A stretch of 10,496 bases of DNA, from the NCBI GenBank assembly GCA_017621295.1, contig JAGATI010000121.1, positions 1 through 10,496 on the forward strand. The letters run 5' to 3'. Below the pieces are notes generated by a model. It was not told the origin of the DNA, did no database searches, and saw nothing but the letters and a program-made list of their open reading frames with translations. Source of the stretch: Clostridia bacterium. Its GTDB lineage: Bacteria > Bacillota_A > Clostridia > TANB77 > CAG-508. The stretch's first letter is position 1; the number at the start of each line of letters is the position of its first letter. Below are positions 1,025 to 7,036 of the stretch, one piece after another. The position numbers were made by a program, and so were the translations under genes.

Positions 1025-1237
1025 ATGATTCATTTAAGAGTAAAAGAAATATTAAAAGAACAAAAGAAAACAAAATATTGGTTTGTAAAAAAGATGGAAG
1101 GCGGTTATCAATCACTTTCGCATATGATGAATAATGAAACAAGCAGTATTCGTTTTGATACTTTAGAAAAAATGTGTGATGTACTTAATTGTGAAATTGG
1201 AGATATAATTGTTAGAAAGAAAGGAAAGAGAAAATAA
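1025..1237 (+). CDS. XRE/Cro-type helix-turn-helix regulator, 70 aa
   Basis: This is a small single-domain Cro/CI-like DNA-binding protein of the YozG-like type. The order is as expected: LRVKEILKEQKKTKYWFVKK (helices 1-2), then YQSLSHMMNNETSSI (turn and recognition helix), then FDTLEKMCDVLNCEIGDII, the typical closing helices of this family. The C-terminus is basic (RKKGKRK). ATG at 1025 is preceded by GAGAGGTGG. The TAA at 1235-1237 overlaps the ATG of the next gene by one base, so the two are translationally coupled. It probably regulates its own operon and perhaps the divergent 54-aa gene. The lysogeny repressor of the phage may be a different, unseen gene. Confidence 0.85.
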   Translation: MIHLRVKEILKEQKKTKYWFVKKMEGGYQSLSHMMNNETSSIRFDTLEKMCDVLNCEIGDIIVRKKGKRK

Positions 1238-1623
1238 TGAGTAAATTATTAAAACAATATGAAGAATTAAAAAAACAAGATCCTGAAAAAATTTATATTT
1301 TTAAAGTAGGTATTTTTTATAATATTTTAAATGAAGATGCCAGAATAGTCTCAAACACAATAGGTTTAAAACTAACTGATTTAAGTCCAGAAATAGTAAA
1401 ATGTGGCTTTCCAATCGCCAAATTAGAAAAATATACACATTTACTAGAATCTCATAACTTAAAATTCCAGGTAGTATCTAACCCAGCACCTTCAAATCAA
1501 AACACTTCTTATTATGACAGTATTATTAAGAAAATACAAGATATTGACTTAAATAATACTACTTGTAAAGAAGCATTTGATATATTATATAATATACAAC
1601 AAAAAATAAAAAATATACAATAA
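1237..1623 (+). CDS. Standalone MutS domain I-like protein, 128 aa
   Basis: Residues 4-80 resemble the N-terminal mismatch-recognition domain of MutS: LLKQYEELKKQDPEKIYIFK, then GIFYNILNEDARIVS (25-39), then LGLKLT-like TIGLKLTD and CGFPIAKLEKYTHLL, ending LKFQVV. In MutS the G-x-F-Y-E motif supplies the Phe that stacks on the mismatch and the Glu that contacts it. Here the Phe (F27) is kept and the Glu is Asn (N29). There are no connector, clamp or ATPase domains; MutS itself is over 800 aa. The tail from about 85 (PSNQNTSYYDSIIKKIQDID onward) is a short helical extension. It is coupled to the XRE gene. From memory, MutS-like (MSL) genes have been listed as DGR accessory genes in a survey of these elements, which would tie it to the retroelement 2.2 kb away. 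A phage-encoded mismatch-repair modulator is the alternative. Confidence 0.75.
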   Translation: MSKLLKQYEELKKQDPEKIYIFKVGIFYNILNEDARIVSNTIGLKLTDLSPEIVKCGFPIAKLEKYTHLLESHNLKFQVVSNPAPSNQNTSYYDSIIKKIQDIDLNNTTCKEAFDILYNIQQKIKNIQ

Positions 1624-2883: not shown

Positions 2884-3050
2884 TCTGATTTACTTTCTTT
2901 TAATTGAGTACCAAAATAAAATGCTATAATCATCAAATATATTTGTTCAATATCCATTTGTCCCATTACAGCTTTATAAGCTACAACTAAAGTCAATATT
3001 AAGGTTACTAAACTTTTAACATTAATTAATTTTGCGATTTTTTCCTTCAT
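2880..3050 (-). CDS. Holin-like small membrane protein, 56 aa
   Basis: ATG 3048-3050 has a perfect AGGAGG (3058-3063) 7 nt upstream; the stop is TAA 2880-2882. The product has two hydrophobic segments, VKSLVTLILTLVVAYKAVMG (11-30) and IEQIYLMIIAFYFGTQL (34-50), a basic N-terminus (MKEKIAK) and a charged C-terminus (KESKSE). That pattern fits small phage holins with two membrane spans that open the membrane for the endolysin. Its position between the XhlA-like gene and the amidase supports this. Its ribosome binding site overlaps the stop codon of the upstream gene. Family assignment is by topology and context, not by a recognised motif. Confidence 0.75.
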   Translation of the reverse strand: MKEKIAKLINVKSLVTLILTLVVAYKAVMGQMDIEQIYLMIIAFYFGTQLKESKSE

Positions 3051-3366: not shown

Positions 3367-3396
3367 AAAAGAAGACCTTAATCTAGGTCTTCTTTT
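3367..3396 (-). terminator. Intrinsic terminator closing the tail/DGR operon
   Basis: AAAAGAAGACCT (3367-3378) pairs perfectly with AGGTCTTCTTTT (3385-3396) around a 6-nt loop. On the minus strand the stem is followed by a T-rich tail (TTTTTCTT). It overlaps the stop codon of the chaperone gene and separates the tail module from lysis. It could also work in the other direction. Confidence 0.7.
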
Positions 3397-3890
3397 CTTG
3401 GCCATATTACATTATAGGGAAATCCTTCTTGTTTAGTAATATCCCTTAATTCTTGTCTATATTTTGACATATTATTGTTTAATATATTGCCTATTCCTTT
3501 AAATACCTTTATTACTACTGTTAATAAATTTGTTGCAGTAATTTCTTCAGGTATTTCAATTCCTAATCTGTCTATGCACATTTCCTTATCTGTTTCTTCT
3601 AATAATTTATTTCTTTGTTCTCTAACCATTGAAGCTACTTCGTTATATTCATTGTTTTTTGCAAGTTCTAACCATTTGTTGTATTTTTCTTCATTGTCAT
3701 TTAATTCTTGTTCTAATTCATCCCTGTAATTAGTATTTAGTCTGTATGTATCATAAGAATATCTTTTTTCATTATCTTCCAAACTTTCTAATTCTTGAAT
3801 ATTATCAAAAAATACAAGATCGCACTTGCCATTAATTATATTTTCTATTTCAAATTTATTTTTTGGCTGTAAGTTGCTTTCTGCTTTCAT
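3378..3890 (-). CDS. Phage tail-fibre assembly / tail assembly chaperone-like protein, 170 aa
   Basis: The C-terminal block YRQELRDITKQEGFPYNVIWP is the signature of phage tail-assembly chaperones (pattern YRQ.LRD...Q.GFP..v.WP), which help receptor-binding fibre proteins fold or load and are not part of the virion. The middle is helical and charged (QELNDNEEKYNKWLELAKNN). ATG 3888-3890 has AGGAG (3900-3904) at 9 nt. The first 35 bp overlap the reverse transcriptase gene in another frame, so the two are coupled. Its natural client is the tail protein whose C-terminus is diversified upstream. No Avd-like four-helix signature is evident, although a divergent accessory role in the DGR cannot be excluded. 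Confidence 0.75.
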   Translation of the reverse strand: MKAESNLQPKNKFEIENIINGKCDLVFFDNIQELESLEDNEKRYSYDTYRLNTNYRDELEQELNDNEEKYNKWLELAKNNEYNEVASMVREQRNKLLEETDKEMCIDRLGIEIPEEITATNLLTVVIKVFKGIGNILNNNMSKYRQELRDITKQEGFPYNVIWPRKEDLD

Positions 3891-4914
3891 TTTTAATCAC
3901 TCCTTTACACTTATTTAAATCTACATATGGTTTCACATATTTTTCATTAAATTTATAAGAATCACAATGTTTTAACCATCCATAATAGCTTAAAGATGCA
4001 CTTGCATCTTTATAAGTAATTTTTTGCTTTTTAGATATTTTTTTATATCTTCTTTTTATTCTCAAAAAATTACTTTTTCGTAAAGTAGTGTACCCTCTAT
4101 AAAATCTATATCCTAAAAAATCAATTGGTCTAGAATCAACTTTAAACAATTGCCAATTTTCTTTTAATAATAAATCTTCATTTTTTAAATATTCTTCTAT
4201 TTTATCCTTTATTTTATGTAGTTCTTTTTTGTTTCTATGAAATAATACCATATCATCCATATATCTTAAATAATATGGAACTTTTAAATCTTCTTTTATG
4301 TAATGATCTAAATTTTGTAAGAAGAAATTTGCAAACCATTGTGAAGTATAATTTCCAATAGGTACTCCCTGCTCTGCACTATCTATTATTTTGTCAATTA
4401 AATCTAATGTATCTCTATCTTTTATAATTCGCAAAAATTTTCTTTTTAAAATACTTTGATTTATACTTGGATAAAACTTTTTAATATCTAACTTCAAACA
4501 ATATTTAGTATTTTTTCTATCTCTAACAAGTATCTTTTTTAAGTATTTTAATCCATGCATTATTCCACGATTTTTTATTGAACCACAACAATATTCGTAC
4601 ATTCCTTTCATTATAAAGGGCTCTATTTGTTGCATTAATGCCCAATGTACTACTTGATCAGGATAAAAACAAGGTTTATATATAATTCTTTCTTTTTTTC
4701 TTACTCCATCGTGTATTTTCATTTCTACATATGGTTTTGGAGTATAAGTCTTTTTTGAAAGTTTATTATATATATCATCCACATAAAATATAATATTATT
4801 TATTACTTGTTGTACATTATCTCTATTCTTTTTGCCTTTTGAAGCATTTAATATAGCTTTATAGATATTATTTTTATCTATAATTTTAATATAAATATTT
4901 TTAGCTGTTTTCAT
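3856..4914 (-). CDS. DGR-type reverse transcriptase, 352 aa
   Basis: Copies the TR RNA into cDNA with errors at adenines; the cDNA then replaces VR. Motifs in order: GSIKNRGIMHG (111-121, RT2-like), LKLDIKKFYPSI with D143 (motif A), IGNYTSQ (186-192), YMDD (218-221, catalytic Asp pair) and FLGYRF (266-271). The IGxxxSQ form of motif 4 is the mark of DGR RTs, where group II intron and retron enzymes differ. There is no maturase or endonuclease domain, and the length is usual for the family. The C-terminal third is strongly basic (RIKRRYKKISKKQK), fitting RNA binding. ATG 4912-4914 follows an AGGTG site, downstream of a 137-nt spacer and TR. No inactivating change is visible in the motifs. Confidence 0.96.
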   Translation of the reverse strand: MKTAKNIYIKIIDKNNIYKAILNASKGKKNRDNVQQVINNIIFYVDDIYNKLSKKTYTPKPYVEMKIHDGVRKKERIIYKPCFYPDQVVHWALMQQIEPFIMKGMYEYCCGSIKNRGIMHGLKYLKKILVRDRKNTKYCLKLDIKKFYPSINQSILKRKFLRIIKDRDTLDLIDKIIDSAEQGVPIGNYTSQWFANFFLQNLDHYIKEDLKVPYYLRYMDDMVLFHRNKKELHKIKDKIEEYLKNEDLLLKENWQLFKVDSRPIDFLGYRFYRGYTTLRKSNFLRIKRRYKKISKKQKITYKDASASLSYYGWLKHCDSYKFNEKYVKPYVDLNKCKGVIKNESRKQLTAKK

Positions 4915-5161
4915 ATTTCACCTGGTTATCTTATTTTTGTCTACCGACTTTTCATTTAAAAGAAACTACTAGGCCAGTCCAGTTCGACTAATTTTCAGCA
5001 AGGGCTGTGGAAAATGATGTGTACTATTAAATTATTATTTCCAAAAATAAAAACACGAGCCCCACAATTCCAATTCGCATTCGAAGAAGTGTTGTTCAAA
5101 TTCCAGTACCACAAACCAGCGTTAGCACCATTGTTCGAATTACCGCCAACACGAGCAACCC
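4915..5161 (-). ncRNA. DGR template RNA: TR plus 3' spacer
   Basis: Between TR and the RT start lie 137 nt with no ORF on the coding strand. In the Bordetella phage BPP-1 system a spacer of similar position and size, 3' of TR, is required for cDNA synthesis and binds the RT complex, so this is the expected functional RNA. A hairpin is visible at 4992-5014: CAGC (4996-4999) / GCTG (5004-5007) with a 4-nt loop, then a bulge, then TTTT/AAAA. The 5' and 3' ends of the RNA are not determined; limits given are TR start to RT start. Confidence 0.55.
5052..5161 (-). repeat. DGR template repeat (TR), 110 bp
   Basis: Aligns without gaps to the VR at 5315-5424 (offset 263). There are 15 mismatches, all at positions that are A on the coding (minus) strand of TR. 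TR has 22 such A; 20 of them form ten AAY (Asn) codons, the others being one ACT and one TAC. Read in the target frame it gives GGNSNNGANAGLWYWNLNN and then TSSNANWNCGARV. Because NNY codons can never be stops, mutagenesis of the AAY codons cannot truncate the target. The plus-strand ORF over this stretch is an artefact. Confidence 0.96.
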
Positions 5162-5214
5162 ACTCAAAAGCACAAAGAAACAGGACTGTTACACATCAAA
5201 TCCCTTTGCTCAAT

Positions 5215-5243
5215 ATTATACTAAATTTAAAAATAAAAAATAA
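5215..5243 (-). promoter_or_regulatory. Possible promoter for the template RNA
   Basis: A perfect minus-strand TATAAT (5215-5220) lies about 55 nt upstream of TR, with a poor -35 (TTATTT, 5238-5243) at 17 bp. A second TATAAT (5253-5258) has no -35. An independent start would let TR RNA and RT be made apart from the long tail transcript; the evidence is weak. Confidence 0.3.
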
Positions 5244-5268
5244 CTACTCTACATTATAGTTAAATTAG

Positions 5269-5290
5269 CTGGGAGGCTGACCGCCCCCAG
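5269..5290. repeat. GC-rich hairpin downstream of VR
   Basis: CTGGG (5269-5273) pairs with CCCAG (5286-5290) and GGC (5275-5277) with GCC (5283-5285), with one bulged A and a 5-nt loop. It begins 25 bp past the 3' end of VR and 10 bp after the stop codon, beside a G-run, in otherwise AT-rich DNA. Hairpin or cruciform structures just downstream of VR promote target recognition in the Bordetella phage DGR. There is no T-run, so a terminator is unlikely. Confidence 0.55.
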
Positions 5291-5299
5291 ACCCCCGTT

Positions 5300-7036
5300 T
5301 TACTGGTGTTTAAGAACACGAGCCCCACAAGCCCAACTCGCACTCGAAGAAGCGCCGTTCAAAACCCAGTACCACAAACCAGCGTAAGCACCACCGTACG
5401 AAGAACCGCCAACACGAGCAACCCTGTTTCCTGCGTCCTGATAATAATAATCACTAGTTCCTGAAGAACTTCCACCACCTAATTCTGTTGGAAATTGTAT
5501 TAATGGATGATTTATATCAAATCCTAATGTTTTTGGATAACCATTAGTATCACTATTTGTATATCCTAATGCTTCATATGGTGCATCGAATTTATCACTT
5601 GCATATTGTGATGGATCATAACAAATATAAGCCAATCTATCTTTTATATTTATACCATCAACAAACATAAATATATTTGAATGTATTCCTTCTATTCCTC
5701 TGTAAATTACATTGTGTTTGCTATCATTTACTAAACATCCTGATTTCATACCTAATTCATCGCATTGCCCTGCAGATTGAACACAAGTCCAAATTGTAGT
5801 TGTTAATGTTATGTTTGCTACTGCTTCATCCAATACAATTTCTTTTCCTGTTGTTTCTCCTGATTCATAATTATTTATTGCTGTTATAGTTCTTATTACA
5901 GATGATGCACTATCATATGAACCAATTCTTACTTGTTGCCCTACCACAAAAGCATTTCCTGCTGTTGTGTTTACTATAAATTTATTTGTATTTGTTTCTG
6001 CTACTAAAGCAACATCTCCATTATTATGTCTCATAGAAGAACATCCATTACCTAATGCACTTTGTGAATTAAAAGTTGCATATTCTACTAAATATAAGCA
6101 TTGAATCGCAAAATATCTCCAATCCATTAAGCAATAATCTTCACCTAGATTTTTTACTAAATTTCTATATGTTACTATATTCTTAAAATCAGCCCCTGCT
6201 ATCCCACTATAACTATGTAACAATCCATCTTCTCCAACACCAGTTAAATATCTAGCTATATCAAATTCTTTTATTTCTGTAAATCCACTTTTTGCAAAAT
6301 CAGCAATTAAAATATATTGATAATCATTTTCTTGGTATAGCTTTATCCAAAATGTTGGTATATGCGTATATACATCTCCATTGCTTCCATCGAATTTAAA
6401 ATCTGCATCTCCATAATATGCTTTTTTCTTTCCTGTTGCTAAATCTAAATTGAATGAAATAATATCTTTCCAAGGAGAAAGATTATCAAAATCATTTTGA
6501 ACAGCACTTCCGTTTTTTGTTGCGTTTGCTACTAGCCCAACAGAATCTTCTATTCTTTCCCAAGATACTGAAGTGTTATTTGAAATTTTTCTCCTTACTC
6601 CATATACATGACCTCTTGTAGTTTCTATATTTTCAAGGTTTTCTTCTATATCTTCTAATCTAGCATCTACAGTATCATAAGTTTTACCTTTTACTGCTGA
6701 TGTTCTTGCATTTGTTACTTCTTCATCTTTTATTTCTATTTTTTTATTAGAAATAGTTAAAGCCTTACCACCTAGAGTAAGACCTTCTAATAGATTTACT
6801 TGTGCACCTGCAGCAATTCCATTTAATTTTGTTAATAGTGCTGCAGTAAAATCGTTAGTAGATAATCCTTTTCCTGTAACTTTATCTACTTTTCCATCAT
6901 TTATTTCTTTCATTTTGTCATCGATTTTTTTCCAGTTATCATTAACTGCCCTATCTATGTCGTAACTAGAATCCAAATCTTCCGAGTTGTTAGTATCCCA
7001 CATGAATAAATTTAAAAAATCTGTAAATTTAGACAT
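5300..7036 (-). CDS. DGR-diversified tail/receptor-binding protein, 578 aa
   Basis: This is the variable protein of the retroelement. The N-terminus (1-80) has features of phage tail-fibre proteins: DIDRAVNDNWKKIDDKM and VDKVTGKGLSTNDFT...AGAQVN. A short coiled coil follows (about 120-140, VDARLEDIEENLENIE). The C-terminal half is likely a C-type-lectin fold, as in Mtd and other DGR targets, ending RVARVGGSSYGGAYAGLWYW then GASSSASWACGARVLKHQ. VR covers residues 539-574. Residues already altered from TR are 545, 547, 548, 551, 558, 561, 562, 565, 567 and 569; N560 is a mutable Asn still equal to TR. The scaffold (GLWYW, GARV) is constant. ATG 7034-7036 has AGGAGG at 7 nt, abutting the upstream stop. 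It should bind a host receptor. Confidence 0.93.
   Translation of the reverse strand: MSKFTDFLNLFMWDTNNSEDLDSSYDIDRAVNDNWKKIDDKMKEINDGKVDKVTGKGLSTNDFTAALLTKLNGIAAGAQVNLLEGLTLGGKALTISNKKIEIKDEEVTNARTSAVKGKTYDTVDARLEDIEENLENIETTRGHVYGVRRKISNNTSVSWERIEDSVGLVANATKNGSAVQNDFDNLSPWKDIISFNLDLATGKKKAYYGDADFKFDGSNGDVYTHIPTFWIKLYQENDYQYILIADFAKSGFTEIKEFDIARYLTGVGEDGLLHSYSGIAGADFKNIVTYRNLVKNLGEDYCLMDWRYFAIQCLYLVEYATFNSQSALGNGCSSMRHNNGDVALVAETNTNKFIVNTTAGNAFVVGQQVRIGSYDSASSVIRTITAINNYESGETTGKEIVLDEAVANITLTTTIWTCVQSAGQCDELGMKSGCLVNDSKHNVIYRGIEGIHSNIFMFVDGINIKDRLAYICYDPSQYASDKFDAPYEALGYTNSDTNGYPKTLGFDINHPLIQFPTELGGGSSSGTSDYYYQDAGNRVARVGGSSYGGAYAGLWYWVLNGASSSASWACGARVLKHQ
5315..5424 (-). repeat. DGR variable repeat (VR), 110 bp
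   Basis: The 3' end of the tail-protein gene and recipient of TR-derived cDNA. Relative to TR the coding-strand changes are nine A to G, four A to T and two A to C, and none at G, C or T. Similarity ends sharply at both sides (first non-A mismatches at 5314 and 5425). Four codons remain after the repeat before the stop. Confidence 0.96.

Follow-up and report, generated by a model that had tools for sequence, protein, structure and literature searches.

A phage-borne diversity-generating retroelement of probable avd-less type in a Clostridia bacterium contig, with an RT-18 RNA between template repeat and reverse transcriptase

A 10,496-nt stretch of DNA from a Clostridia bacterium (assembly GCA_017621295.1, contig JAGATI010000121.1; hereafter the window) was found to carry the components of a diversity-generating retroelement (DGR) in a phage tail region. 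On the reverse strand, a tail gene ending in a variable repeat (VR) is followed by a hairpin, the template repeat (TR), an RNA of the RT-18 type and the gene for a reverse transcriptase (RT). An operon of a regulator gene and MSL, which encodes a stand-alone MutS domain I, lies on the forward strand. Relative loci compared with the window are numbered L001 and upward. Publications are cited by their PMC numbers.

Repeat pair, reverse transcriptase and target gene

TR (5052..5161) and VR (5315..5424), both of 110 bp on the reverse strand and offset by 263, aligned without gaps. All 15 differences between them fell on adenines of TR (9 A>G, 4 A>T and 2 A>C); 15 of the 22 TR adenines were changed in VR and 7 were unchanged, as were all 88 other positions. 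The chance of 15 randomly placed differences all landing on the 22 adenines is p = 1.5e-13. Our recalculation reproduced exactly what an earlier note on this DNA had reported, namely a gapless 110-bp pair with 15 of 15 differences at A and 15 of 22 A changed. Lengthening the alignment by 4 bp brought in one non-A difference (T/C at 5051), immediately beyond the 3' junction. When the repeat scan was set to treat C, G or T as mutable instead of A, none of 63 runs gave a match (the window and L001-L020, first 12,000 bases, times three bases). Read in the frame of VR, TR contains 10 AAY codons, one TAC and one ACT, and VR changes 10 of these 12 codons. The last 16 nt at the 3' end of VR (5315..5330) are free of A and identical to those of TR (5052..5067); by analogy, these ends are named IMH-like (initiation of mutagenic homing) and IMH*-like, respectively.

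The RT gene (3856..4914, reverse strand) is an open frame of 352 aa with matches to PF00078 and phrog_1423 (E = 3.4e-113), and both motifs named earlier, IGNYTSQ and YMDD, are present beside the repeats. The nearest solved relative was 8ub7 (97.1 bits), a 328-aa protein entered as 'Reverse transcriptase' which, also by its fitting length, we take to be the Brt protein of phage BPP-1; group II intron RTs followed at 47 bits. Both the window RT and BPP-1 Brt have [IVL]GxxxSQ and YMDD. By its motifs and nearest solved relative, the window RT is thus of the DGR type. Its relatives sit in metagenome-assembled genomes (MAGs) annotated as uncultured Clostridia, Bacilli and similar, several of them from animal gut samples, and more distant relatives occur in Bacteroidota too.

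The target gene (5300..7036, reverse strand) encodes a 578-aa protein that matches the tail protein family phrog_5302 (E = 9.6e-51), and VR lies in frame at its 3' end, in line with the earlier note. The AlphaFold model had a mean pLDDT of 80.1, with low values across much of the first 140 residues. In a Foldseek comparison with the PDB, the top three matches were all TaqVP (the first being 5vf4; E = 1.4e-7 to 3.5e-7), which is described as a DGR variable protein with a C-type lectin (CLec) fold (PMC6328139). The superposition was loose, with a TM score by target length of 0.42-0.44 and a root-mean-square deviation of 11.3 over 447 columns for the first match and above 10 for all, and comparison with Mtd, the BPP-1 protein, gave E = 0.12. 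A PDB sequence search with the target alone gave no match. A profile of 34 target-like proteins (alignment A3, using 34 of 131 target-like open reading frames, many of them duplicates) had 5vf4 as its sole PDB match (E = 0.065), and the aligned stretch was VR. The predicted structure, with TaqVP as first matches and a loose overall superposition, supports the lectin-like C-terminus proposed before and a CLec-like variable tail protein resembling TaqVP; tail family and fold together point to a receptor-binding tip. Residues at about 340-416 form a stretch that is missing from several homologues (e.g. those of L048, L088 and L009) and may be a domain inserted in the CLec-like body.

The window was then compared with the sister phage L001, whose RT gene is 93.2% identical over the first 900 nt. 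Between the two TRs there are 6 differences in 110 sites. Five of these sites are non-A, and at every one of them each VR has the base of its own TR; of the 21 adenines that the TRs share, 15 correspond to a difference between the two VRs. Because the VRs track their own TRs at the non-A sites while differing at adenines, both lineages have, on this comparison, rewritten VR from TR after their separation. This gives indirect support to the recent activity that had been proposed for the element. The pairs L083/L084, L002/L086, L021/L022 and L035/L113, each with the same TR but VRs unlike at 11-18 adenines, point the same way; the VRs of L009 and L010 have three adenine-site differences. A spacer-pattern search for near-identical phages returned the contig of L001 as the sole match.

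An unfiltered diagonal search found a repeat scoring above 35 in 58 of 78 sequences (RT identity of at least 50%, window included). Of the 20 others, L007 scored low, and in 19 the sequence upstream was too short. Changed positions were 807 of 1699 for A, 38 of 1360 for C, 65 of 1780 for G and 138 of 2233 for T, and most of the non-A changes came from a handful of noisy loci, L088, L089 and L097 among them. This count was made separately from the strict scans, which retain only segments free of non-A mismatch, so that the zero non-A counts in those comparisons are partly built in. Several loci are near-duplicates, and locus counts are therefore not independent events. From these sequence comparisons, we regard the element as a real and probably active DGR.

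Two further repeat arrangements were observed. In L015, a TR/VR-like pair with an offset of 1456 and 2 of 23 A changed lies 2 kb upstream of RT and is a candidate for a freshly copied or little-used VR. In L049, L052, L061, L062, L066, L072, L074 and L080, a single TR has two or three matching VRs in its locus, and these appear to be multi-target DGRs among the distant relatives.

RT-18 RNA in the spacer and hairpin behind VR

The spacer between TR and RT contains a match to the RT-18 RNA of Rfam (RF03021; 4930..5007, reverse strand), with 62.8 bits against a cut-off of 41.3, and Rfam RT-18 was found directly before RT in all 19 close loci given. In an alignment of spacers (A1, using 52 of 62 distinct spacers), base pairing occurred in 97.3% of cells, compared with 70.4% after shuffling and 21-43% when slid. 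Two-sided changes were present in 11 of 12 RT-18 pairs, a count that 87 of 500 shuffles reached too; none of the 500 equalled the alignment in its covariation score or in the number of cells changed on both sides. Covariation strongly supports the predicted RT-18 fold.

A covariance model built from the 52 spacers (R1) was searched against 76 sequences from the window and L001-L080 (L023, L030, L054, L055 and L069 were left out) and then against 66 more loci. It matched 59 of the 76 and 44 of the 66 sources, once each, on the RT strand and near the RT start. All 73 close loci tested were matched (52 had trained the model), as were 30 loci with distant RTs. No R1 match was obtained in the remaining distant-RT sources, BPP-1, the avd-type loci L166-L169 and the divergent-RT loci L177, L180, L181, L190 and L191. 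Among named phages, LBR48 scored 50.2 bits, Arawn and Perkons gave weak matches of 23-24 bits, and CrAssphage LMMB an unclear one of 15.9 bits; Perkons had an additional match of 27.2 bits on the wrong strand. At Rfam cut-offs, RT-17 and/or RT-18 occurred in 4 of 10 distant RT loci (RT-17 in L036, L042 and L115; RT-18 in L037 and L042), and RT-18 also exceeded the cut-off in LBR48 and L111. In L009, L010, L088, L093 and L094, TR lies 270-362 nt before RT, compared with the usual distance of about 90-155, and RT-18 still adjoins RT; an insertion or a second TR may lie in between.

In BPP-1, the spacer part of the template RNA is reported to fold, to recruit bRT-Avd and to prime cDNA (PMC12875486). 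By analogy, RT-18 is most likely the counterpart of this part, and we consider it likely, with good confidence, that RT-18 is the spacer domain of the template RNA in avd-less DGRs. A literature search, with most subscription journals outside its coverage, found no paper linking RT-18 RNA to DGRs, and we do not claim that this link is unpublished.

Behind the 3' end of VR lies a GC-rich hairpin with the 5-nt loop GGTCA (5269..5290, reverse strand; DNA fold z -2.65, with 3 of 200 shuffles equally good). Of 60 loci with a TR/VR pair, 53 have a hairpin with a GRYCA loop no more than 60 nt from the end of VR. It was missing in L110, L043, L114, L094, L024, L027 and L109; the loop of L043 is GAGCA, and the hairpin of L110 sits further on. 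Over 52 distinct sequences, the 70 nt after VR had a mean folding energy of -19.5 kcal/mol, compared with -8.7 kcal/mol in random stretches of the same loci that were not matched for G+C. Guo et al. described phage DGR hairpins with 4-nt GRNA loops and found that, in BPP-1, enlarging the loop by as little as 2 nt nearly abolished function (PMC3240598). The GRYCA loop keeps the initial G and final A of GRNA and is one base longer, and the window, with its 5-nt GGTCA, lacks the 4-nt GRNA loop of the avd type. Some distant relatives have predicted 4-nt loops (e.g. L029 and L041), and many have no clear hairpin.

Avd, the MSL operon and the surrounding phage genes

No Avd was found among the 10 proteins scanned from the window, which covers part of its phage. 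The Avd family PF22296 gave no match in 16 viral records of relatives and 9 more of relatives and MSL phages, records which may be fragments, with the BPP-1 control at 123 bits. A PF05635 search of 22 records was uninformative, as it gave no match even in BPP-1, and a home-made Avd profile matched, among the loci collected, only L164-L170. The open reading frame after RT was rejected as an Avd candidate, as it matches tail-fibre assembly families. The earlier note had called the DGR complete. RT, TR, VR and target are indeed present; an avd gene was not found, though according to PMC7290462 the DGRs of lineage 3 also lack avd. An avd-less DGR as such is therefore already known. The window shares with lineage 3 the order target-TR-RT without avd and a target of the CLec type.

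MSL (1237..1623, forward strand) encodes a 128-aa protein matching PF01624 (E = 7.5e-14), a probable accessory. Its start overlaps by one base with the end of a regulator gene of the helix-turn-helix (HTH) family HTH_26 (1025..1237, forward strand; PF13443, E = 4.3e-12). The span of 3378-7036 assigned previously to the element includes the DGR cassette and leaves out this operon at 1025-1623, which lies about 3 kb from the DGR, on the opposite strand and past the lysis genes. The MSL model (pLDDT 87.0) matched Taq MutS by Foldseek (E = 1.4e-6, probability 1.00). The motif Phe-x-Glu is what MutS uses to read a mismatch. In MSL, Phe is kept in all sequences, and Glu is replaced by Asn in 28 of the 32 covering the site and otherwise by C, V, I or A. 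An MSL alignment (A2) was made from 31 of 33 rows; L103 and L162 were left out as incomplete.

Of 50 close loci that extend 4.7 kb or more past the RT start, 28 had MSL and 28 the HTH gene; neither was found near distant DGR loci (0 of 70). All eight relatives of the HTH gene found in IMG/VR lie in MSL contigs. A DGR-type RT accompanies 22 of the 27 MSL loci in IMG/VR (15 close, 7 divergent). Scans for an A-specific repeat were positive in all five MSL loci with a divergent RT that were scanned and in L178, which lacks an RT match, and negative in the MSL loci L176 and L198. In L167 and L168, MSL, avd and RT are consecutive; with MSL beside avd in these loci and missing from 22 of the 50 close ones, a role of MSL as a replacement of Avd was not supported. 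MSL has been published as a DGR accessory (PMC10053308), and, like the published family (PF01624), the window protein has MutS domain I by itself and occurs with DGRs. It differs in having its own operon with the HTH gene on the opposite strand, whereas in L167 and L168 MSL lies directly before avd-RT.

A second type of DGR carries the same HTH-MSL pair (L190:6830-13485; similar in L177, L180, L181 and L191). Its RT has YTDD and IGSQPSQ and is 23% identical to that of the window, and its TR/VR pair is A-specific. An open reading frame of about 171 aa without a Pfam match lies between target gene and TR, which is the avd position in BPP-1.

The genes flanking the cassette are those for tail, tail-fibre assembly and endolysin. 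The tail-fibre assembly gene (Phage_tail_APC; 3378..3890, reverse strand; PF16778, E = 7.5e-12) overlaps the end of RT, follows RT directly in most close loci listed and is considered a neighbour with no known part in the mechanism. Positions 1-152 of the forward strand, read by eye, hold the end of what we take to be a tyrosine-recombinase-like protein (MGHANVATTLNVY), which suggests a temperate phage. Directly behind it, at 183-298, lies a 41-nt inverted repeat with 80% complementarity, a candidate terminator or attachment region.

Comparison with known systems, alternative explanations and meaning

The lineage 3 DGR of CrAssphage LMMB (L207) resembles that of the window in its order target-VR-TR-RT, the lack of avd, a CLec-type target and a phage tail setting (PMC7290462), as well as in the TR/VR pair found in this analysis. 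Its RT is 38% identical to the window RT; unlike in the window, no Rfam RNA exceeded the cut-off in the spacer, the R1 score was at the low level given above, and no GRYCA hairpin was seen behind VR. In Lactobacillus phage LBR48, whose RT is 51.7% identical, RT-18 lies at 702-777, just before RT at 822; no TR/VR was found in the stretch, and the record starts 821 bases before RT. BPP-1 shares with the window the order VR gene-TR-RT next to tail and lysis genes, a structured RNA between TR and RT and a hairpin 3' of VR. It differs in having avd (123 bits) and a 4-nt hairpin loop, its RT is 26% identical, and its spacer slot (2750-2882, between brt at 1756-2742 and TR at 2887-3020) is occupied by RF03022 Phage_DGR, where the window has RT-18.

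The A-specificity, the class of the RT, the A-free 16-nt ends, the hairpin, the CLec-like target and a layout that recurs in dozens of relatives support the earlier assignment of the element to DGRs; mutagenic retrohoming itself has indirect support from the comparison with L001. By layout, lack of avd and target type it is very probably a phage-borne avd-less DGR like those of lineage 3. Several findings weigh against this assignment or against activity: no avd was found at the window locus, and Avd is essential in BPP-1; the window spacer, folded singly, gave no signal (z 0.15); the corresponding VRs are identical in L068/L069 and in L052/L054/L055; and the strict scans left 19-20 of 81 sequences and 8 of 40 genome loci, truncated or decayed ones included, without a clean A-specific pair.

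The failure to find avd would fit a fossil DGR, an element that rewrote its VR at an earlier time and then ceased to work, for instance because Avd was wanting. This is very unlikely given that RT is open with intact motifs, that none of the 88 non-A positions differs between TR and VR, and that VR follows its own TR at all five non-A sites diverged from L001. Alternatively, the DGR might be active with Avd supplied in trans by a second DGR in the host: bAvd exceeded the cut-off in 8 of 18 host MAGs of relatives, and the four examined adjoin their own DGR-type RTs. The other 10 host MAGs, which may be incomplete, had no bAvd over the cut-off. Moreover, avd-type and window-type RNAs differ, since L166-L169 and BPP-1 had no R1 match, and lineage 3 DGRs are published as lacking avd (PMC7290462); we consider such borrowing improbable. 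An RT of a group II intron, retron or defence system with unrelated repeats can hardly be entertained. The best of six NCBIfam matches was group_II_RT_mat (88.9 bits), but all six were far under their cut-offs. Among solved RTs, the enzyme was closest to 8ub7 and further from group II intron RTs, PADLOC gave a generic RT resemblance without class information, and TR/VR pairs accompany the RT in relatives. The group II intron or retron assignment was therefore rejected in favor of a DGR-type RT.

For MSL, the alternative is a bystander of the phage backbone that lies outside the DGR. Its position on the opposite strand beyond the lysis genes and its absence near 22 of 50 close and 70 of 70 distant DGRs agree with this. 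On the other hand, 23 of the 27 IMG/VR MSL loci have a DGR-type RT and/or an A-specific repeat, in two RT lineages; of the other four, L176, L179 and L182 have at most 3.2 kb downstream, and L198 has a partial MSL match and 7.9 kb downstream without RT. The direct placement of MSL before avd-RT in two loci and its publication as an accessory (PMC10053308) also argue against a bystander, which we regard as possible, if not the favored case. When the BPP-1 system was rebuilt, mutS was removed so that DGR substitutions would be preserved, whereas a reporter with an 18-nt insertion was unaffected by the removal (PMC12875486). On this ground, a shielding role of MSL is at most thinkable; that it shields the mutated heteroduplex from host mismatch repair seems to us rather unlikely.

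By inference from BPP-1, an avd-less DGR of this kind would work as follows. The RT would bind the TR-spacer RNA through the RT-18 fold, prime at the spacer and copy TR with errors at adenines. The cDNA would then replace VR; its point of entry would be the identical 16 nt at the 3' end, which the hairpin marks. MSL might perhaps assist by occupying mismatches in the cDNA/VR heteroduplex, which is a guess. The tail protein made in this way would vary at its C-terminal tip in as many as 12 codons, which presumably alters receptor binding. The combined proposal would have RT-18 and RT-17 act as the spacer domain in template RNAs of DGRs without avd, forming an Avd-free retrohoming machine together with the five-base-loop hairpin, and MSL, with its changed mismatch-reading residue, shield the heteroduplex; as a whole it is doubtful.

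Phage DGRs that vary tail proteins and DGRs without avd are already known; what the window DGR adds is the RT-18 assignment, the 5-nt loop and the MSL/HTH operon. The close loci, 73 of which were tested for the RNA, form a compact natural set for comparing spacer RNA, target hairpin and accessory protein. A role is suggested here for RT-18 and also, on the basis of three loci, for RT-17. It proposes an Avd-free RT-RNA complex, and the survival of DGR-made mismatches under host mismatch repair would become testable.

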